Part shown: positions 8,315 through 22,718 of the stretch, in pieces | How the letters are laid out: every line of letters starts with the position of its first letter | Position numbering within the stretch: the stretch's first letter is position 1 | Assembly: GCA_025716855.1 (NCBI GenBank) | Contig: JAIXMQ010000007.1 | Span: 310,001-374,000 of the forward strand | DNA: 64,000 nt | Direction: 5' to 3' | Origin: Pilaira anomala | Lineage: Eukaryota > Mucoromycota > Mucoromycetes > Mucorales > Mucoraceae | The notes under the pieces: generated by a model | What the model was told of the DNA's origin: nothing | Databases searched by the model: none | Seen by the model: only the letters and a program-made list of their open reading frames with translations | Program-made: the position numbers and the translations under genes

Positions 8315-8387
8315 TGGAGTAGCTGGGCGTCGATCCCAGTGCCTCTCACATGCTAAGCGAGCGCTCTACCATTTGAGCTACAACCCC
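8315..8387 (-). tRNA. tRNA-Ala(AGC), intact, without intron
   Basis: A full 73-nt cloverleaf on the minus strand. The acceptor strand GGGGTTG pairs with CTACTCC (discriminator A). The D-arm is GCTC-AAATGGTA-GAGC, the anticodon arm CTCGC-TTAGCAT-GTGAG gives anticodon AGC, the variable loop is AGGCA and the T-arm is CTGGG-ATCGACG-CCCAG. A T-run follows the 3' end. Position 54 is A instead of the usual T, giving a B-box of GGATCGACGCC. The 5' end abuts a retrotransposon copy directly, so the natural upstream flank has been replaced while the internal promoter boxes are preserved. Confidence 0.93.
8374..8387. repeat. Target-site sequence, copy A (within the intact tRNA)
   Basis: TGAGCTACAACCCC, the complement of tRNA-Ala nucleotides 1-14. 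This is the copy that belongs to the whole tRNA and is directly followed by element copy 1. Confidence 0.85.
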
Positions 8388-8856
8388 TCCAGCTGAACTG
8401 TTTGACTCTCTCCCGGTTGCTCCTCCTGGTGTGAATAGGCTTGATCATGCGATCTCGTCCCTACCCACTACTGCTAAGGCTGGTCCTCCCAAATTCTGGC
8501 CCGATCTCTTGGCCATCCTTTGGTACATCGACACGCTGTGTCACCCATCAAAATTTATTCCTGAGGATCCATCTCCTGGTTCTTCTTGGTCCGCTCGCCC
8601 TGGTCGAAACGATTAGTCTGTCTAGGTGTCGCGCTACACGGTAACGTACCCGATGTCAAAGCCTTCATCTTCATTCTATTTCTTATTACATCTGTCTCTT
8701 CTTGTTCTCTCTCCTCACCGTTTTATTCCTTCAGCGTTTCTCCTAAGGATTTTTTTAGTTTCTTCACATATCTTTTAGTTAGTTCTTGGAAAATAGGCCA
8801 TGCTATGTATAGCAGCCCATCCATTTTCTTTTATTAATAAAACATACTTCTTAAAC
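8388..8856 (+). mobile_element. LINE copy 1, 5'-truncated 3' end of a site-specific non-LTR element
   Basis: This piece holds only the end of an ORF2 and a 3' UTR. Its frame (about 8393-8616) reads LFDSLPVAPPGVNRLD and later LLAILWYIDTLCHPSK. It aligns with the last ~75 residues of the full-length ORF2 at 14.1 kb but differs at many positions, so it represents another subfamily and is not a piece of its neighbour. The 3' UTR ends TTAATAAAACATACTTCTTAAAC directly before the next 14-bp target copy, with no poly(A) tail. The missing 5' end fits incomplete target-primed reverse transcription. It is inserted immediately upstream of the tRNA gene and points away from it. Confidence 0.82.
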
Positions 8857-8870
8857 TGAGCTACAACCCC
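8857..8870. repeat. Target-site duplication, copy B (between LINE copies 1 and 2)
   Basis: TGAGCTACAACCCC, identical to the first 14 nt of the tRNA-Ala gene in reverse complement. The rest of the tRNA is absent here. Confidence 0.85.
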
Positions 8871-9117
8871 CCCCTTTCTTTCGCTTAAAGAATTTTTCAG
8901 TAAGTTTGCTCAATCCCAATCCGAAAAATTTTTCAATCGATCAATCCGTTACCAAAAACTCGACTTTTCAACTGCATCCAACGGAATTCCGACTAAACCT
9001 TCGTCTGGCTTTCCATTGGTACCAAATTTATTCCGGTCCGACCACTTTTCGACAAGTCCGGTGGTCATTCCTCATTCCAATTCAGAATCAAGATCTGAAA
9101 AAATTTTTTCTCAAAAC

Positions 9118-10764
9118 ATGACTAAGCGTACGCCTGCTTCCGGAGCCTCCAAAGCTTCAAACTCTAGCCCGGCCCCGCCCCTGGTACTCTCTTCGGCCCG
9201 GACAAGAGCAACCGGGAAAATTGAATCTCAGCAAATTGAAATCCCGTCAATTGAAACTCAACAAATTGAAGTCCCGTCAATTGAAACTCAGTCAATTGAA
9301 ACTCCGATATTTCAAACTCAGCAAATTCAAAGTCCGATTTTTCAGGCTCAAAATTTTGAAACTCCGCAAAGTCCCAACATGGATTTTGAAGCTATCCCTG
9401 ACTCTCCTGGCACTAACAACCATGCAGATGTCCTATCTAAAAATCGCAAGCTTAACCGCGTTTATACAGGTCGTACTATTAGTAAAACCTCTATAAATCC
9501 CTTAACTAAAAAACTTTCTATTTTGTCTAGAGAACTCTCCTCCAATACTACCAAGGTAGTTCCCTTGGTTGACTCTTCTGCTATTCAAAATAGTGCATCT
9601 TTTTCCTCTGGTTCTTCTTATTCAGAAAGTTCTGAACTACTCGCTGCCATCGATGCCAGATTCCAGCAATATGAATCGCGTATTGATTCCCGAGTGGAAT
9701 ACTTGGCCCGAGAGAACACCGAGCTTAAGGAAACTGTTGCCACCCAAGCAAGTTTAATCGCTGAACTTCGTGCTCGCTTACTTGCTGGACCATCATCATC
9801 ATCATCAAATCAAGACCATGATCTAGTCGAGGACTATATGCTTGTTGATGTGCCACGTGATCTTAGTTCCAATGGTAGTAAATGGAAAGATGCTCCTCCC
9901 ACTGTTGCCACTGAACCTAAGCCCCGTAAAGCCGCTAAAGTTGTGCAAGTCAAGCCAACTTTGGCCCAAATTGCTGCTGCCTCTGCTGCCAAACCGGTCC
10001 AGAAGAACAAACCCCGTGCCAAAAAGGTTGTATCTTCAGCCCAGTTAGCAAGTGCTGCCCGTCCCTTTGTATCCAACACCGGTCCATCTGGATTCCAGTT
10101 TGTTTACATCGGGCGTTCCCGTAAGATCTCCCGTGGTGACACCCGTGCTCGTCTCAAGAGGTGTGGTATTGACATCAGTCGAGTCTTGGATATCAGTTTC
10201 CCTGCCCATGGTATAATTGGTGTTCTTGTTCACTGTCAGTACGCCCCTACATTCATCTCTACAATGAAAAGAGTGAATGCGGAACTGTTTGAGGATTTCG
10301 ATCCCCTTGATCCCAAGCATATTGCAGACCCTCAATATGAATCCTGTTCCCAAGCAGGTCGTCAAGACCTTGCTGCCCAGCTTCAGTACAAGAGGTGTAT
10401 GAACGCACTCACGTATTTGCAAGCTTCTCGTCCCTATCAAGTTAAACCTGTAGGTTATTCTCTGGTCCAACTTGGATATATCTCTGCTGAGGATGTTACT
10501 TCCTGTGCTTCTACTCCGGCTACTAATCCCAGGGCTAAGGTTAACTCTGACGCTGGTGCTCTTTTCTCTTCTTCGTTGGGTAAGAACAAGGGTAAGGGTA
10601 GAGACACTGTTTCTACTGAAGACTCCTTTATGGGTGAATCTGAAGTAGTAGGTTCTGTTACTGTTGAAGGTGATAATGGTGTAGGTGGAAATGACCAACA
10701 TGCTTGTGTTGACTCTGACGGTGCTATGTCAGAGGTTGAAGAGGATGCTGCTGCATCTCTTTAA
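9118..10764 (+). CDS. LINE ORF1 protein (nucleic-acid-binding, coiled coil)
   Basis: Presumed ribonucleoprotein component of LINE copy 2, 548 residues. The ATG at 9118 is chosen because the upstream in-frame ATG at 9016 lies in the shared 5' UTR. In order: a Ser/Ala/Pro-rich start; a repetitive stretch (about residues 36-85) built from short units such as IETQQIEVPS and QSPIFQAQ; a basic segment; a probable coiled coil (about residues 180-220, around LLAAIDARFQQYESRID); an Ala/Lys-rich linker; a folded block beginning FQFVYIGRSRKISRGDTRARL and running through CGIDISRVLDISFPAHG; and an acidic tail. The folded block recurs in the ORF1-only element. No CCHC knuckle is seen in this ORF. The stop is 2 nt before the ORF2 ATG. 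Confidence 0.85.
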   Translation: MTKRTPASGASKASNSSPAPPLVLSSARTRATGKIESQQIEIPSIETQQIEVPSIETQSIETPIFQTQQIQSPIFQAQNFETPQSPNMDFEAIPDSPGTNNHADVLSKNRKLNRVYTGRTISKTSINPLTKKLSILSRELSSNTTKVVPLVDSSAIQNSASFSSGSSYSESSELLAAIDARFQQYESRIDSRVEYLARENTELKETVATQASLIAELRARLLAGPSSSSSNQDHDLVEDYMLVDVPRDLSSNGSKWKDAPPTVATEPKPRKAAKVVQVKPTLAQIAAASAAKPVQKNKPRAKKVVSSAQLASAARPFVSNTGPSGFQFVYIGRSRKISRGDTRARLKRCGIDISRVLDISFPAHGIIGVLVHCQYAPTFISTMKRVNAELFEDFDPLDPKHIADPQYESCSQAGRQDLAAQLQYKRCMNALTYLQASRPYQVKPVGYSLVQLGYISAEDVTSCASTPATNPRAKVNSDAGALFSSSLGKNKGKGRDTVSTEDSFMGESEVVGSVTVEGDNGVGGNDQHACVDSDGAMSEVEEDAAASL

Positions 10765-10766
10765 TT

Positions 10767-13700
10767 ATGTCGACCCTTCCTTTCATTATCTCTCTTTGGA
10801 ACGCTCGTGGTCTAACTAATACAGTTGTCCACGATGTGTTATCTCATGCCTCCCAATCTTATGTCCTTTTTATAACCGAAACCTGGCTTTACCGTCCTTC
10901 TACTCTCCTTCCTTCAAACTGGCGAGCTTTCCATGCCCTTGGTAAAAAAGTAAGCCGTGCGAATAACCGTGGTGAAGAGGGTATATGTGCTCTTATAAAC
11001 CCTTCCTGTCCCTACCGCGTTGTTCAACTTCCCTCTTTCAGTAACTATGCTCTCTCAATCAAGGTTGGTGAGATTAGATTTCACTGTCTATACCTCCCTC
11101 CTTCTATGCCCGATGATCAAGTCTTCATTATACTTGACTCCATTCCTTTCGTTCCTAATACATTCATTTGTGGTGACTTCAATGCCCGTCTTGGCGAAAT
11201 CATTGGTGATTATAACTCTAATCCTAGGGGTCTCAAGCTCCTCGATTGGGTTAACACCAGGCAACTGGTTATCCTAAACAAGACTCTCTCCTTCGCTGTT
11301 CCTACCTTTACTAGCATCCGTAAGAAGACAAAGCTAGTTGATGGGGTCCCTACCAAGGTTCCTACTAAGATATCCAGCATCATTGATCTTTTTGTAACTG
11401 ATATCTCTACCTCTGATCTCCTGAACTCTTCTATCGAAGTCAAATCCGATCTCTCTCTGGGCTCTGATCACCGTCTCATGACTTTGTCATTTGATATTCG
11501 ATCATCCCTTTTGACTCCTGATACTCGAGAGGACACTAGTATGACTCCCAGGCGACTTTGGAACCTCTCTAGGCTTGACAAACCTGATGTTCTTAAGAAG
11601 CTTAGGTCCTCATACCAAGACCTCGTCAAACCTGTGTTAGAGGAAATCTCTGGGTTGGTCTCTACTCCACCTGTCACCTTCCCTCCTATAGACAGTCTAA
11701 ATGACTCGCTTAATGAGTGTCTATACAAGTCCTTGGATAACTCTATTGGTACTACTCCTGTAAGGCCTGGCCACTGGAAAAAGTACTGGACTGCTGAGTT
11801 ACAAGAAGCTGCTCGTTACCGTGATGATTGCTACCGTCGCTGGCGTCTCTCCCGCCGTGATATTGACAAGATACATTGGTATGGCCAACACAAGATCGCC
11901 AACAAAGCCTTCCGTTCGTTGGTCCAGCAAGCTAAGCGTAAGTCGTGGAAACACTTCTGTGCCGAAGCCGAAGCCAATTTCTCTAAAGCTACCAAGACAC
12001 TATCTAGAATTAAGAAACGTGCATCCTCTTCAGCCTCGTTCTCTCACACCGATGGTCCTACCAAAGCTTTAGAAGTTATGTCTAGCCACCTAGCCTCCGT
12101 CTATAATGGGTCTTTTCTACCAAGTAGTCGTCCATCTGATTTCATTTGGAATGAGCTTCGTCCTTTTGAGGTTCCTCTTGGTATCTTCGATGTGGATGAG
12201 ATCCAGTACGAAATCAAGCGGTTATCTTCTGGTAAGAGTCCTGGCCCCGATCATATCAAAGCCGAAATGCTCAAGCCTCTCAACAGTATCATTAGCCCTG
12301 TTCTCTCTGCTTTCTTTAAGCTATGCTGGCAATGGTCTTATACCCCAATGGATTGGAGAAAAGCTACTGTCTTCCCTATCTTCAAAAAGGGTGACCCCAC
12401 TGATCCTGCTAACTACCGGCCAATCTCACTTACATCTGTCCTTCGTAAGTTGTTTGAGAAGCGCATCTCTGGTCTTGTTGTGTCTGACTCTCCTCCAATT
12501 GATGTTGCTCAAGGCGGATTTCGTGAACAACGTAGCCCTTTGGACCAGTCTCTTTGCCTCCATGATTTGATGTTCGATTTCTTTCGCAAGCATCATCATT
12601 ATCCTCCAGTGGTTTTCCTAGACATTAAATCTGCATATGATACTGTGGATCGTAGGGTGGTTTGGAACTCTTTGGCCAGCTCTTCTACCTTTTCCCGGCC
12701 TCTACTCATGCTCTTGAAGAATCTGTTTGATGATGTCTCTATCTCGGTATTGCTCTCCAATCAGTCTTCTTCTCCCTTTGTGCCGGTTACCGGATTACTA
12801 CAAGGATCTGTCTTATCACCCCACTTGTATTCCGTGTACATCAACTCTCTTCCAGGTGTTCTTCGGTCTATGGCCTCTCCTAGAACTACCTCGGTTACAC
12901 TACCGGACGATATGGTGCCTACACCACTGAACTGCCTCCTTTTTGCGGATGACGTGGCCGTCTTTGGTACTAAAGAAGAAGTCCAAGGTATGCTTGATCT
13001 TGCTGCTGAGCACTCCTTTTCTTTAGGTTATCGCTGGAATCCCAAGAAGTGCGCCGTCTTGAATGCTCCCTCTCCCACTTCGTCCTCTTCCCGTGGCTTT
13101 TCCTTTACCTTATATGGTGAGGCTATTCCTACTGTCCAGCAATTTACCTATCTCGGTATGGAATTTAACCAGAAAGGTTTATATGGTCCTGGTATCCTTG
13201 AGAAGCGGTCCGGTGCTGCTTTATCTACGGTGAATCTACTCACATCCTCTGGTATGAACCGTAACGGATTCTCTCTCTTGTTCTGTTCTCGTCTCTACAC
13301 CTGCTTCATCCGCCCAAAATTTGAATATGGCCTAGCCATTTCAAAGTTATCTGCTCCGGATTTTAAGGCCCTTGAAGACCTCCAAAATAAAGTTGTCTCC
13401 ACTTTCCTGGGCAGTCGCCATACCAATGTTGCTAAGCATATTACTTGCTTACCTATGATGCGATTTCGGTATGACTCCCTGGTTACTCGATTTGTATACC
13501 GTGCTACATACCTCCCAGAGGACTCCTTGGTGCTTCTTCTTCGTGATACTCTCCGTCAGTCCAGGATGGTGGATCTTCTTCAGAAAAATCCGCTGTACCT
13601 ATCCCTGCCCAACCCACTACCGGAAACTCCTCTGCTCCTTAGGAAACACTTTCAGCAGTATTACCAAGACCAACGTGATTCAATTCGTGAAGGCTTTGCT

Positions 13701-14141
13701 CGTTCTGGTAAACAAGTCCTACTTCGTGCCTGTCGCCCAAGTACTTCTAAACCTGACCCTATTCTGTACTTGCCTATGAATAACTACGCCCGTAGTAGAC
13801 TGGTACGCTGGCGTCTAGGCCGCTTCACCTCAATGGCTCGTGTCGAGTGTCCGTGTCAAGATTTTGGTGCCATGATATCCCGGTCCCACTTTCTTCACTG
13901 TCGTGCCATTGACCCTGATCTCTTTCTCTCTCTCCCAGCTGCTCCTCCTGGTGTCAATCAGCTTGATTTTGCTTTAAATCAACTGCCCACGAAAGCTTCG
14001 ATTCATCCTCCCGCCTTCTGGTCTGACCTCTTGGCAATTCTTTGGTATATTGACACGCTGTGTCACCCCTCAAAAACAATTCCACCGGATCCCTCCCCTG
14101 GGGACTCTTGGTTCTCATACCCCCTAGCTGAATTGGCTTAG
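10767..14141 (+). CDS. LINE ORF2: AP-like endonuclease / reverse transcriptase
   Basis: Multifunctional retrotransposition enzyme of 1124 residues. The N-terminal EEP endonuclease shows Asn12 (WNARGL), Glu38 (TETW), GDFNA at 136-140 and Ser-Asp-His at 233-235, the expected catalytic set. The reverse transcriptase spans about residues 500-800, with FKKGDPTDPANYRPISL, the A-motif VVFLDIKSAYDTVD, the B-motif TGLLQGSVLSPHLYSVYIN and the catalytic FADD at 726-729. A C-terminal Cys/His finger (VECPCQDFGAMI followed by HFLHC) lies near 1027-1045, as in L1-like elements. No RNase H domain is evident. The endonuclease presumably chooses the tRNA-Ala site. Translation is probably coupled to ORF1 because stop and start form TAATTATG. 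No frameshift or internal stop is present. Confidence 0.93.
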   Translation: MSTLPFIISLWNARGLTNTVVHDVLSHASQSYVLFITETWLYRPSTLLPSNWRAFHALGKKVSRANNRGEEGICALINPSCPYRVVQLPSFSNYALSIKVGEIRFHCLYLPPSMPDDQVFIILDSIPFVPNTFICGDFNARLGEIIGDYNSNPRGLKLLDWVNTRQLVILNKTLSFAVPTFTSIRKKTKLVDGVPTKVPTKISSIIDLFVTDISTSDLLNSSIEVKSDLSLGSDHRLMTLSFDIRSSLLTPDTREDTSMTPRRLWNLSRLDKPDVLKKLRSSYQDLVKPVLEEISGLVSTPPVTFPPIDSLNDSLNECLYKSLDNSIGTTPVRPGHWKKYWTAELQEAARYRDDCYRRWRLSRRDIDKIHWYGQHKIANKAFRSLVQQAKRKSWKHFCAEAEANFSKATKTLSRIKKRASSSASFSHTDGPTKALEVMSSHLASVYNGSFLPSSRPSDFIWNELRPFEVPLGIFDVDEIQYEIKRLSSGKSPGPDHIKAEMLKPLNSIISPVLSAFFKLCWQWSYTPMDWRKATVFPIFKKGDPTDPANYRPISLTSVLRKLFEKRISGLVVSDSPPIDVAQGGFREQRSPLDQSLCLHDLMFDFFRKHHHYPPVVFLDIKSAYDTVDRRVVWNSLASSSTFSRPLLMLLKNLFDDVSISVLLSNQSSSPFVPVTGLLQGSVLSPHLYSVYINSLPGVLRSMASPRTTSVTLPDDMVPTPLNCLLFADDVAVFGTKEEVQGMLDLAAEHSFSLGYRWNPKKCAVLNAPSPTSSSSRGFSFTLYGEAIPTVQQFTYLGMEFNQKGLYGPGILEKRSGAALSTVNLLTSSGMNRNGFSLLFCSRLYTCFIRPKFEYGLAISKLSAPDFKALEDLQNKVVSTFLGSRHTNVAKHITCLPMMRFRYDSLVTRFVYRATYLPEDSLVLLLRDTLRQSRMVDLLQKNPLYLSLPNPLPETPLLLRKHFQQYYQDQRDSIREGFARSGKQVLLRACRPSTSKPDPILYLPMNNYARSRLVRWRLGRFTSMARVECPCQDFGAMISRSHFLHCRAIDPDLFLSLPAAPPGVNQLDFALNQLPTKASIHPPAFWSDLLAILWYIDTLCHPSKTIPPDPSPGDSWFSYPLAELA

Positions 14142-14429
14142 TAGTGTCTTTTGGTGCGGCCCCTCGGTAGTAAGTACATAAATCAAAGTTCCTCATCGTT
14201 GGCGCGCTCTCCAAATCATAAACCGTCTTAGTAACCTAGTTGGTCTCCTACCCTCCTCTCTTGCCATTTTTTTCCCTTTTATATTTATTTATATTTATAT
14301 TTAGTTAGTCCTACGGAATTTTTTAGTCTTTTCTTTTCCCCTTTTGCCCCTTGGGTGTTCAGGCATACATCATTGGATCAGCCCACCAGCATCCTTTTAA
14401 TATATCATTAATAAAACTTCTATTTCATC

Positions 14430-14443
14430 TGAGCTACAACCCC
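14430..14443. repeat. Target-site duplication, copy C (between elements 2 and 3)
   Basis: TGAGCTACAACCCC, followed by five more C residues that belong to the 5' end of the next element. Confidence 0.85.
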
Positions 14444-16400
14444 CCCCCTTTCTTTCGCTTAAAGAATTTTTCTAGTAAGTTGCATCCAAAAAACTTGAAA
14501 AATTTTTCAATCGATCCATCCGTCATCAAAAAACAATCAATCCGTCCGAATCGAAGTTCGTTTAGTCTCTCCGGCTCTCTGGCTTTCTTCTCGTACCAAA
14601 AACTCCTTTCTCCGGCAAGTCCTTCACTTTCCTCTTTTGGACATTCGCAATCTTGCATTTCAGATCTTGGATCTTGACTCATTCAAGCTAAATGGTAAGA
14701 CCGTCTTCAAAACCAAGTCTCGTTCCGGACCAGGCAAGCCCTACCAGCTCGAGCCGAACCCGCACAAGGCCCCAACCTCATGTCCCGGCCCGGACAAGTT
14801 TTTCTCAAGTTCAAACTCCGCAAGTTCAAGTCTCGTCAATTGAAACTCCGAAAGTTCAAACTCCGTCAATTGAAGCTCCGCCCATTCAAACTCCGAAATC
14901 AATTTTTGAAACTCCGTCGAGTGAAAATTTTGATTTTTCTTATGGTGATAAAAGACCATTTTCCGTTGTCTCTCCTTCCTCCTCCGGTGACACTTCCTCC
15001 AAGAAATCACCCGCCGTATCCCAACATCAACTAAGAGATATCAAGGACCGTTTGAAGCGTTTAGAAGATGCTTACGCTGAAATCTTCACTCTTCGTAACG
15101 CCCTTGAACACTCCGAATCCGCTCGCCGTGCTCTGGAAAGCCAAGTTGTCCAACTGAAAGCTGCTCAACAAGGCCCTCCTACCAAGTCTTCTCCTCCTCC
15201 TCCTTCCGCTGCCAAGTCCTCTGAGGCCGGTACTACCTTCGCTAGCGTTGCTGCCAAGAACGTACCCAAGCCAAAGTCCAAGGCCAAGGCTAAGAAACCT
15301 CCCGCTCCTTCTCCCCGCCGTGCTGCTGCTACCATTGGTCGACTTTTTGGTCCTAAGGCTGGTACTCCTTCCGAATACCACTTTGTCTACTACAAGCAGT
15401 CCATCCGCCGTCCTCTCAAACAACTCCGCGCCTCCCTTAAAAACATCGGTATCAACGTCTCCCGTATCTTAGATATCCAGTACCCTGAAGCCCAGATTGT
15501 CTCCTTTCTCTTACATGCTGACTACATTGCCGAGTTCACCAGCTTAATGAATGAGAAAGGCCGTGGTGCTCTACCTGCTCGTGATTATGACCCGTACCAC
15601 CCGGAATCTCTTAAGGATCCCAAATTCGGCACTCTCTCCTTTGAGCTTCGCGCTCAAAAAGCTCGTGAAATTCAAAACACTAGGTGTCTTCGAAGTCTCT
15701 CTTTTGTCCGTCGTTCTGCCCGTCTCTCTGTTGCCCGTTCCTTCCTTTACTATAACCGAATAAATCAAACCCAGTTTGATGTTATTCTGGCTCAAGAACG
15801 TGCTTCCCGTCCTTCTCCTCCTCTTCCTCCTCCCAAGCTGTCTCCCGAAGAAGTAGTTGAAAAGAAAAAGCACCTAGCTTATCTTGGATACCTTCTCCAC
15901 CTTGACCATGAAGCTGCCCACAGCTTGGCTTACGCTCCTCCCTCGGTAGATGAAACAATGATGTCGGACTAGTCCGTTTCTTTTTTTAATCATCACTGTG
16001 TCTATCCTGTCTCTCCTTTCTCTTTCTCTTCTCTTTCCTTTCGGTTTTGCTTCCTTCTCTCTTTTTCTGCTCCGTGCTCTCCTTTTTCTCTCCTTTTTTG
16101 TGTTTCTGCATTTTGTTTGTGTTCTTTTGTGCCTGTTCGGATTGACTGTCGGGGTTACCCAGTGTACTGCTCCTTTCCCAAGCCTTCTGTATCCATTCCT
16201 TGCCTTTCTCTTTCTGTCTCTCTTCTTCTGTGCTGGTGACTTTTTTAGTATTTTAATTATAATTAACCCTCTGTTCTTCGGAACATTTATTATTTCTTTA
16301 CTTTTTGTTACCTTGTTTCTCGGGGTATTCAGACTACCATCTTTCCAGTCCCTTGCACCCCTTATTAATAATAATTTTAATAAAACCAACTTTCTTAACC
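14444..16400 (+). mobile_element. ORF1-only (half-LINE-like) element at the same tRNA target
   Basis: A 1.96-kb unit flanked by the same 14-bp duplications. Its 5' UTR opens CCCCCTTTCTTTCGCTTAAAG and continues nearly colinear with that of LINE copy 2, including AAAAATTTTTCAATCGAT. It then carries one ORF1-type gene (14692-15972) and goes straight into a pyrimidine-rich 3' UTR ending TTTTAATAAAACCAACTTTC plus TTAACC. There is no endonuclease or reverse transcriptase. The ORF1 differs widely from that of copy 2, so it is not a simple deletion of its neighbour. It probably moves with enzymes supplied by full-length relatives, like mammalian HAL1; that part is inference. Confidence 0.82.
14692..15972 (+). 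CDS. ORF1 protein of the non-autonomous element
   Basis: A 426-residue protein with the same architecture as the LINE ORF1 at 9118: a short basic start, a repetitive stretch (about residues 37-80) with units such as VQTPQVQVSSIET and IQTPKSIFETPS, a coiled coil (about 100-155, around DRLKRLEDAYAEIFTLRNAL), an Ala/Lys/Pro-rich linker, and the folded block EYHFVYYKQSIRRPLKQLRA through NIGINVSRILDIQYPEAQIV. After that it keeps KEIQNTRCLRSL-like sequence but has a different C-terminus. The frame is uninterrupted, which suggests selection on the protein or recent insertion. It ends at TAG 15970-15972 with no following ORF2. It likely binds its own RNA; no enzymatic motif is visible. Confidence 0.82.
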   Translation: MVRPSSKPSLVPDQASPTSSSRTRTRPQPHVPARTSFSQVQTPQVQVSSIETPKVQTPSIEAPPIQTPKSIFETPSSENFDFSYGDKRPFSVVSPSSSGDTSSKKSPAVSQHQLRDIKDRLKRLEDAYAEIFTLRNALEHSESARRALESQVVQLKAAQQGPPTKSSPPPPSAAKSSEAGTTFASVAAKNVPKPKSKAKAKKPPAPSPRRAAATIGRLFGPKAGTPSEYHFVYYKQSIRRPLKQLRASLKNIGINVSRILDIQYPEAQIVSFLLHADYIAEFTSLMNEKGRGALPARDYDPYHPESLKDPKFGTLSFELRAQKAREIQNTRCLRSLSFVRRSARLSVARSFLYYNRINQTQFDVILAQERASRPSPPLPPPKLSPEEVVEKKKHLAYLGYLLHLDHEAAHSLAYAPPSVDETMMSD

Positions 16401-16414
16401 TGAGCTACAACCCC
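16401..16414. repeat. Target-site duplication, copy D (distal end of the array)
   Basis: TGAGCTACAACCCC followed by TTTTCCGATGATTT, which has no element character. This should be the original 5' flank of the tRNA-Ala gene before any insertion. Confidence 0.82.
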
Positions 16415-17899
16415 TTTTCCGATGATTTATGGGATTTAAAAAACAGTGATAACCTGACTAGCCGGACAATAAAAGTCCGGACCGAACTGGTCCGACATTT
16501 TTCGGCTGTGACGTAGTCAGTCCGGTAGATTTAAAAGCCAATTTTTAAAAAACAAGGCACGAAAAAGGAAATTTGTACCACTTGTCAAGAATCATGCAAA
16601 AAAAGAAAAAGGCACCACTTTCCTTTATATTTTATATCACCAGTTTATGATCATCATAACAAATTTTATTCCTAATTCTTTCATTCCGAATATTCTACAG
16701 GTGTTAATTTATTCCAATTATATTACTCATCATGATCGCTTGTTAATTATATATTTATTATTGCCAATATTATTATCTCATTCAAGTATAAAACACTCTG
16801 CTCATATTATTTATAAAATAAAATAAGGAGATAACTATCTAAATTACCTCTGAGAGTTCATTTAGATCAAAAAGAAACTTGCAATGTTTTGAGTTTAAAA
16901 ATGTGATTATAAATGAAAATACTTAAATAGGTACTGCCGACCACGTGAGCGTGCTTGAACTTGGCTCAGATTTTGGCTGTGCTGCTTGTATTTAGTCTTG
17001 TTCTCTGACTGAAGTGTATAATTACCATAAACTGCACGCAGTAATGTGGTAAAAAAAAACATACAAATTTGTATCTAACTCGGTATAAAATTTTGAAAGC
17101 GAAAAATAATCATACTTTTATTTAGTAATTGTGTCGTATTTGCATCATATCTCCCACTCACTTATATAAAAATATATCGGGAGAGGGATATAAAACCGAA
17201 CATAACAATGGTAATAAATTAGGAATTTTATTTCAAAGAGGTATATCATTACCGAGTAAATCTTGATAACAAATAAATTATGTTTCTGTGTAGACTGTAT
17301 ATGTATTGGATAGGGAAGATGTTTCGCCTGAACCCGTTAATAAAGCGAGTAGATTTTAGCTCATAAAATTTGTAATTAAAGTAATATCTAGTTTGAATTT
17401 TTATTTGTCTATATAGAATGATAGCGAAAAAGAAATAAGTACTCAGTCCTAAAGTATTATCAACTTCAAGAGATATCTGGGTATATATTGTTTAAGCTGG
17501 AGAACAAATTACACATTAATGAGAGATTTTTGATTTGACTAAAATTATTAAGCTCATTTATGCACAAGGGCTTATGCTAATACGTTAATGTTAACATGAA
17601 TATTTTTGCATTTTTTGTGTAATAGGGCAATGATGAAGATAAACCTACTGGTGCTAAATGATAGTCAGTGACCCTTGTTTTCTATATCGTGGATCGAGAT
17701 TTTTTTTTTTTTTTTTTTTTTGAAAAATTCAAATGTGATACAGATTGCATAATTTTGTGCTCAGATTGGAGTTACATTGGAGAAGAAGAGGGATTATTAT
17801 TATTCTCATTTGTAATTGAAAGTTGTGAAAGAGATTTTTGTTTATTGCTAAAAAGAAGAGAATTAAAAAATATATCAATTACTACTACTACTGTTTTTA
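16415..17899. other. Intergenic, original upstream flank of tRNA-Ala
   Basis: About 1.5 kb of AT-rich DNA returning to host-like composition after the array. It includes GACTAGCCGGACAATAAAAG and CCACGTGAGCGTGC motifs of unknown meaning and a T-run at 17701-17720. The frame at 17668-17907 is low-complexity. No gene is recognised. Confidence 0.5.
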
Positions 17900-22470: not shown

Positions 22471-22507
22471 AGGGACGAAAAGTAAACAATGTATTTTTTT
22501 CTTTAGT

Positions 22508-22718
22508 GACCGTACTCTACAGGATCTGTATGCAGTATGTTTCAATTCTACGTTTTCTAAACTAGATACAATCCCAAAGTTAGTCGATGATTTTAAGTAG
22601 ACCTTCTTTTGAGTGAAGTGTGGCGATCATTGCTCTCTGAGCAGTTTTCGTCAGTTGATGATCTCGCCTGTCTTTATTCCAAGGACACGGCAAGGAAGGA
22701 GCTACAAGTCTGATAACT
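22508..22718 (+). ncRNA. Probable U3 snoRNA (rRNA processing)
   Basis: About 210 nt with the boxes of U3 in order. The 5' region GACCGTACTCTACAGGATC resembles the GAC-TACT-CAGGATC start of U3, where box A pairs with the 18S rRNA 5' pseudoknot region (GATCCT). A C'-like GTCGATGATT is at about 22582. Box B, GAGTGAAG, is at about 22611 and is followed by the hairpin TTGCTC-TCT-GAGCAG. Box C, AGTTGATGATC, is at about 22655 and box D, GTCTGA, at 22708-22713, before a T-run. The length is close to human U3. The box A tail normally read ATTTCTATAGT is TGTATGCAGTA here, which is atypical. U3 guides early pre-rRNA cleavages in the nucleolus. This is judged from box order and local hairpins only. Confidence 0.65.

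Follow-up and report, generated by a model that had tools for sequence, protein, structure and literature searches.

Non-long-terminal-repeat (non-LTR) retrotransposons that target transfer RNA (tRNA) genes are known from Dictyostelium and its relatives, where TRE5, TRE3, NLTR-A and NLTR-B have been described (PMC5006619, PMC5911963; here and below, papers are cited for their passages on the elements named). TRE5 inserts about 40-54 bp upstream of tRNA genes and is linked to TFIIIB (PMC5911963, PMC5006619). Dp_NLTR-A of Dictyostelium purpureum, which has an RNase H domain and is unplaced as to clade, lies 2-6 bp upstream of tRNA genes, and the passages describing it mention no duplication inside the tRNA (PMC5006619). 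Three elements with a restriction-like endonuclease (RLE), NeSL-1_TV, LIN15_SM and LIN25_SM, are described as specific for tRNA-Pro, -Arg and -Glu genes, respectively (PMC4640811). Ty3 integrates at the start site of RNA polymerase III (Pol III) transcription (PMC5911963), and Dada DNA transposons insert inside tRNA genes and are reported to keep to a family-specific tRNA gene, some Perkinsus Dada families having duplications of TAGCTC, a box A sequence (PMC3706591). Grem-LINE1 of Mucor is described as pericentric in a main text that lacks the word tRNA (PMC7377519), and the Rhizopus oryzae genome paper, in its passages on long interspersed nuclear elements (LINEs), mentions them without tRNA genes (PMC2699053). 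Here we describe an array of LINE-type elements at a tRNA-Ala(AGC) gene in a 64-kb stretch of the Pilaira anomala genome, referred to as the window, which is part of contig C193 (contigs are numbered with a C) in an assembly of 34.25 Mb. The insertions lie at the 5' end of the tRNA and are accompanied by a 14-nt duplication. Judging from junctions across the genome, they very probably belong to a large family of L1-like LINEs with an apurinic/apyrimidinic endonuclease (APE), whose members use target-primed reverse transcription to insert within box A of tRNA genes.

A LINE array at a tRNA-Ala gene

The 14-mer TGAGCTACAACCCC is present in the window as four exact copies, at 8374, 8857, 14430 and 16401, all at ends of LINE-type insertions. 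No fifth match was found in the window even with up to two mismatches (0.15 expected from shuffled sequences), and the exact 14-mer occurs at only eight sites genome-wide, four of them tRNA-Ala genes and four LINE 3' junctions. The first copy (8374..8387, minus strand) is the target site and left duplication copy, corresponding in reverse complement to nt 14 to 1 of an intact, apparently regenerated tRNA-Ala(AGC) gene at 8315..8387 on the minus strand (ARAGORN; Rfam RF00005, 50.4 bits).

Along the plus strand the tRNA is followed by element A, a 14-mer, element B, a 14-mer, element C, a 14-mer and the native flank, all three elements being on the plus strand. Element A (8388..8856) is a 5'-truncated LINE that retains the end of open reading frame (ORF) 2 and the 3' untranslated region (UTR) and has the 3' end AATAAAACATACTTCTTAAAC; a solo target-site duplication occupies 8857..8870. 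Element B (8871..14429, 5559 bp) is a full-length, two-ORF LINE with an ORF1 of 548 aa counted from the first ATG (9118..10764, plus) and an ORF2 of 1124 aa (10767..14141, plus) with Pfam matches to an APE-type endonuclease and a reverse transcriptase with FADD. After a further solo duplication (14430..14443) comes element C (14444..16400, 1957 bp), which carries only an ORF1 (426 aa; 14692..15972, plus) homologous to that of element B (35% over 130 aa), is presumably non-autonomous and has 97-98% identical copies on C68 and C90. In both B and C the N-terminal part of ORF1 contains 15-bp periodic repeats (9218-9344 and 14805-14898).

The outermost solo duplication (16401..16414) joins the flank that originally lay upstream of the tRNA-Ala gene and is now displaced (16415..16537). 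This flank resembles the DNA upstream of two tRNA-Ala paralogues, on C50 (86% over 84 bp, E = 5e-25) and on C178 (70% over 139 bp), and both alignments begin inside the 14-mer and extend into the flank. The paralogous genes thus show the empty site, and insertion has separated the tRNA from its former upstream flank by about 8 kb. The order of insertion is not deducible from the array, since an element entering the tRNA and one entering a solo 14-mer would leave an identical structure.

A sequence-only reading of the window had placed the 14-mers at element boundaries, recognized in them the start of the tRNA in reverse complement, called the elements LINE-type and proposed that each duplication copies the first 14 nt of the tRNA itself, so that an insertion rebuilds the gene while swapping its upstream flank. 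These points are borne out.

Element junctions across the genome

We collected 31 3' junctions, 30 of LINEs and one of a SINE-like element (SINE, short interspersed nuclear element). Beyond the element end, these junctions continue with tRNA nt 14 to 1 in complement, and AATAAA stands 14-18 nt before the element end. Mammalian L1 elements end in a 3' poly(A) or A-rich tail; such a tail is lacking at all 31 ends here, with the longest A run in the final 15 nt being 4. The base preceding the tRNA part is C in 30 junctions and T in the remaining one, on C13. The tRNAs represented are Ala, Lys(TTT), Thr, Leu(AAG), Leu(CAA), His, Phe, Ile, Gly(GCC) and Trp, with further junctions of Asp-, Glu- and Tyr-like type; one element, on C97, has a 1-nt deletion within its 14-mer copy.

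All 22 distinct tRNA starts in our library have T8 and A14. The tRNAs for Ala and Trp have A15, so that a C at their junctions must belong to the element, and seven of these eight junctions put the nick after A14. Left and right copies mostly diverge at the mature tRNA start or 1-2 bases before it, giving duplications of 14 to 16 bp, and the 5' junction lies at the mature tRNA start or a few nt upstream of it. Among copies found through ORF2, 19 of the 21 readable 3' ends lie at a tRNA start. The pattern AATAAAN{4,20}CTGAGCNNA is weak by itself (49 matches against 31 for the reversed control, few of them examined), and one of its matches, on C58, was rejected as a LINE junction, being unrelated to LINEs.

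The earlier reading had named tRNA-Ala(AGC) as the target and proposed a genome-wide check of whether all copies lie at such genes with a 14-bp duplication. This target is correct for the array in the window but too narrow for the genome, where junctions fall in box A of many tRNA types. Specificity for tRNA-Ala was rejected on the evidence of the other tRNAs at 3' junctions.

Occupied tRNA genes and genome-wide copies

A search of the genome with the ORF2 protein gave 47 matching pieces, and we therefore rejected the idea that the window array is isolated; the 3' end of element B, used as a query, matched itself only. Eighteen tRNA genes, one of them degenerate, have a LINE that begins 0-12 nt from their 5' end and points away from the tRNA: Ala on C193; Lys(TTT) on C1 and C84; Phe on C97; Trp on C158; Ile on C174; Leu(AAG) on C35 and C217; Leu(CAA) on C157; His on C54; Thr on C59, C68 and C192; Gly(GCC) on C90, C144, C156 and C171; and a degenerate Gly gene on C101. 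The LINEs on C144, C156 and C171 were identified by their mutually matching 5' ends. Two loci are less clean, with 22 nt between tRNA and LINE at Lys(CTT) on C143, and about 28 nt of other sequence in place of roughly the first 23 nt of the LINE at Met on C183. In loci with a tRNA beside the 5' side of the element, element and tRNA have opposite orientation.

Four of the 61 best-scoring Rfam tRNA genes, a list that is a lower bound, have a clean element (Trp on C158, Lys on C1 and C84, Phe on C97), in addition to those on C143 and C183. For six tRNA types picked because they are targeted (Ala, Thr, Lys(TTT), Leu(AAG), Leu(CAA) and Gly), exact matches to the 14-mers at their starts gave 31 tRNA genes, of which 14 are occupied, or 13 of 30 without the degenerate tRNA-Gly on C101, which ARAGORN did not call. 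Outside tRNA genes, 20 of the 22 copies of these 14-mers are LINE 3' junctions; seven or so mixed sequences that matched degenerate patterns and were identical to none of the six starts were excluded.

Arrays are present on C193, C97, C101, C144 and C192. Copies at Lys (C1) and Phe (C97) tRNAs are 99.5% identical over 5 kb, copies at Leu(CAA) and Leu(AAG) are 99.3% identical, and the Leu(CAA) copy retains open ORFs of 372 and 1140 aa. This near-identity and these open ORFs suggest that the family has spread recently.

Three further observations concern individual loci. At the degenerate tRNA-Gly, C101:259700-266000 (locus L154) contains three stacked elements of about 1.9 kb each that look ORF1-only and represent a second family, whose ORF1 shares 36% identity with the ORF1 of element C across 143 aa. 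On C124, the place of a LINE between tRNA-Ile and its duplicated 14-mer is taken by a 549-bp insert (84524-85072; loci L071/L132). It begins tRNA-like, with A-box- and B-box-like stretches such as GGTTCGAATCC, and its last 26 nt are 92% identical to the 3' end of element C; ARAGORN and Rfam called no tRNA in it. We rejected a truncated LINE here, as the LINE match is limited to those 26 nt and the start is tRNA-like, and regard the insert as a candidate tRNA-headed SINE that would use the same target as the LINEs. Lastly, several elements of the Lys lineage are broken at a common point, nt 50-55 of the 5' UTR (C158:130695-132839, C192:96288-98227, C84:17447 and C141 before 1044). Two of them are split by inserts of about 2 kb whose ends, CACTRG..CYAGTG, look inverted; these inserts may be a DNA transposon that favours this site within the LINE.

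Box A classes and ORF2 clades

We assembled 29 ORF2 copies on the window ORF2 and, after dropping three short ones, placed 26 in a tree. Exclusion of four unlabelled tips (C136, C44, C85 and C75) left 22, five of them labelled by their 5' side only. The class defined by box A nt 10-14 changes three times on this tree, the minimum for four classes; shuffled labels gave a mean of 5.9 changes, and three were reached in 0 of 10,000 shuffles. Class GCTCA comprises 16 tips (Ala, Lys, Thr, Phe, Trp, Ile and Tyr-like), GCCGA two (Leu), GTATA/GTCTA, which we pooled, two (His and Glu-like) and GTTAA two (Gly). The ORF2 clades thus sort by the box A sequence used. At three loci with differing left and right tRNAs, the class of the element's clade fits the 3' side, in agreement with the prediction of target-primed reverse transcription.

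Element proteins

ORF2 of element B matches Pfam PF14529 (6.5e-8) and PF00078 (7.3e-26), that is, an APE-type endonuclease and a reverse transcriptase in one ORF. No RNase H domain was matched in the window ORF2 at E 0.01 in Pfam, and ORF1 of element B had no Pfam match above the curated cut-off. In 47 aligned sequences the endonuclease residues E38, D137, D207 and H235 are invariant and N12 and N139 are present in at least 90%; we take these six residues to be catalytic. Solved R2 and human L1 ORF2 proteins match the window ORF2 about equally well; 'L1-like' serves here as a working label. Among the best 120 of 388 ORF2 relatives, those named belong to Mucor, Rhizopus, Phycomyces, Cokeromyces, Dichotomocladium, Umbelopsis, Gilbertella, Phascolomyces and Benjaminiella, with an insect far below them; the named Mucor relatives, among the better matches listed, show 53-61% identity. 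No relatives were found in the searched collections of viral contigs and of genome contigs of other species.

Upstream regions of tRNA genes

We examined 83 tRNA genes, a set enriched for targets, of which an element motif caught 13 and missed 70; at least five of the latter are in fact occupied. In the 70 motif-negative genes, TATA starts at -30 to -34 at 0.70 per gene, no other 5-nt bin exceeding 0.17, and 54 have CACGTG within 80 bp, in most cases between -60 and -79. The 13 motif-caught genes all lack CACGTG within these 80 bp. Elements of the Lys-type lineage supply their own TATAAAAG at about -30. Elsewhere in the window, a U3 small nucleolar RNA gene is located at 22506-22718 (65.2 bits).

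Discussion

The junctions are best explained if the ORF2 endonuclease nicks the sense strand of the tRNA gene after A14 of box A, cDNA synthesis is primed from the 3' end thus exposed and begins at the terminal C of the element, and the other strand is cut at a distance of about 14 bp, close to where the mature tRNA starts. The sequences show that the tRNA is restored and that several elements can stack at one tRNA. The ORF1-only elements and the SINE-like element would presumably be mobilised in trans. In the 64-kb window, TRGYNNA occurs 500 times and TRGCTCA 18 times on both strands. Since the first is so common, the heptamer cannot be the whole signal, and more of the tRNA sequence or bound Pol III factors must contribute; the additional recognition might, for example, involve the whole of box A (nt 8-19) or those factors. 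We also entertain, as a doubtful possibility, that the RNA, and not the protein alone, passes on target choice: a read-through transcript would carry the downstream solo duplication, the complement of box A, and base-pair with a second tRNA of that class at the 3' end of its nicked box A. If true, this would account for the precise start at the terminal C, the missing poly(A) tail, the single box A class per clade and the free movement among isoacceptors.

Several points weigh against insertion inside box A as the general rule. The evidence is the DNA sequence of one genome from one strain. The junction list was partly gathered through tRNA 14-mers or AATAAA..CTGAGC, and the 14-mer library ended at A14, so that the initial T of the junctions is in part a product of how the library was made; in tRNAs with G at nt 15, nicks after A14 and after nt 15 would leave the same junction. 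The old copy on C13 has T in place of the junction C. Two of the 21 ORF2-found ends misfit: the one on C75 is broken, and that on C46 has C followed by TGAGC, the remainder matching no tRNA of the library. About 11 more ORF2 copies stand outside these 21 (C136, C44, C85, C89, two on C70, C90b, C97b, C59b, C68b and C156), with 3' ends cut by contig ends, degraded or unfetched. Two exact solo 14-mers lie away from LINEs (C190:11178 and C157:143010). Finally, left and right sides mismatch in four of the 17 loci with both ends read: C90:540509-542491 (Gly/Ala), C143:86980-92381 (Lys(CTT) at 22 nt/Glu-like), C183:111352-116298 (Met/Tyr-like) and C13, without a tRNA on the left. The elements on C90, C143 and C183 each join two different tRNA genes, as if by LINE-mediated rearrangement between tRNA genes or by assembly joins.

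Other explanations differ in how well they account for these patterns. Within the window all three element ends bear the same 14-mer, which might therefore be the element's own 3' terminus, with the match to tRNA-Ala being incidental or reflecting a captured tRNA fragment. However, the 99.5% identical elements on C1 and C97 terminate in sequence of Lys and Phe, respectively, the end of element C carries Ala sequence in the window but that of Thr on C68, and native tRNA upstream DNA lies beyond the outermost copy. Near-identical elements thus carry the first 14 nt of different tRNAs, and we consider an own terminus extremely improbable. It is also very unlikely that the arrays arose by duplication or unequal crossing-over of a single insertion instead of repeated independent insertions. 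Arrays do occur, the mismatched sides at some loci suggest rearrangement, the stacked elements within C101 resemble one another, and the outer flanks of C101:259988 and C158:306893 look alike, so that these two may be one event duplicated; nevertheless, the window elements are of three kinds (5'-truncated, full-length and ORF1-only), and a single family has members at unrelated tRNA genes whose flanks differ.

The remaining alternatives concern specificity. Chromatin or Pol III factors might by themselves direct the targeting, in the way proposed for TRE5 or Ty3, with box A being hit by its place in the complex and not by its sequence. That 19 of 21 readable ends lie at tRNA starts despite 500 TRGYNNA heptamers in the window is compatible with this, as is the binding of TFIIIB subunits by the ORF1 protein of TRE5-A (PMC5911963). 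Factor binding alone would not predict the fixed tRNA position of the junction or the clade-specific box A class, and we think this explanation unlikely. The association between clade and class might instead mirror how frequent the tRNA genes are, or a common ancestry of the sites: GCTCA is the most frequent class (45 of the 83 tRNA genes, in the target-enriched set), the other three have two tips each, one of them by pooling GTATA with GTCTA, and five of the 22 tips are labelled by the 5' side only. Moreover, element C, of the GCTCA class, is flush with tRNA-Gly on C90, contrary to the association, its 3' side there being Ala. Yet the association survives the loss of four tandem tips (18 tips; 1 in 10,000 shuffles), and two elements outside the tree are consistent with it, on C217 (Leu) by 5' UTR similarity and on C112 (Asp-like) by the appearance of its 3' end. 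An origin in frequency or ancestry is thus, in our judgement, quite improbable, and we retain target-primed insertion inside box A as the very probable explanation.

With this insertion pattern the target rules of LINEs would come to include one fixed nucleotide within an internal tRNA promoter that is highly conserved, together with a duplication that repairs the gene. About 30 natural junctions in one 34-Mb genome, together with clades that differ in box A preference, make it testable whether the site is chosen by the endonuclease, the RNA 3' end or Pol III factors, and a site-regenerating, safe-harbour LINE may be of interest for targeted DNA insertion. We found neither an APE-type LINE located within tRNA genes nor an APE-type LINE family cutting box A of many isoacceptors in the open-access literature searched, where no paper naming Pilaira came up either, subscription papers and Repbase being outside the search.

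Comparison with the described systems places the Pilaira elements as follows. They share with TRE5 an APE-type endonuclease, two ORFs, a position upstream of tRNA genes and the orientation opposite to the tRNA, but lie 0-12 nt from the tRNA (22 nt in one case) and use a fixed nucleotide inside it. The statement in the sequence-only reading that known tRNA-targeting LINEs insert at a distance applies to TRE5 but not to Dp_NLTR-A, at 2-6 bp (PMC5006619), or to the tRNA-gene-specific NeSL-1_TV, LIN15_SM and LIN25_SM (PMC4640811). Like Dp_NLTR-A, the Pilaira LINEs are non-LTR elements directly upstream of tRNA genes; unlike it, they are mostly at 0 bp, appear to cut box A and have no RNase H match. 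With the three RLE elements they share target-specific non-LTR insertion at tRNA genes, but those are related to the NeSL clade and are described for one tRNA type each, whereas the Pilaira elements are APE-type and use at least ten tRNA types. Ty3 and Dada differ in using an integrase or a DDE transposase. Grem-LINE1, compared by its description and by Mucor proteins, is likewise an L1-like, two-ORF LINE of Mucoromycotina. Targeting of tRNA genes by non-LTR elements is thus known; what appears to be new, with the open-access literature searched as the yardstick, is an APE-type family at box A of many isoacceptors.

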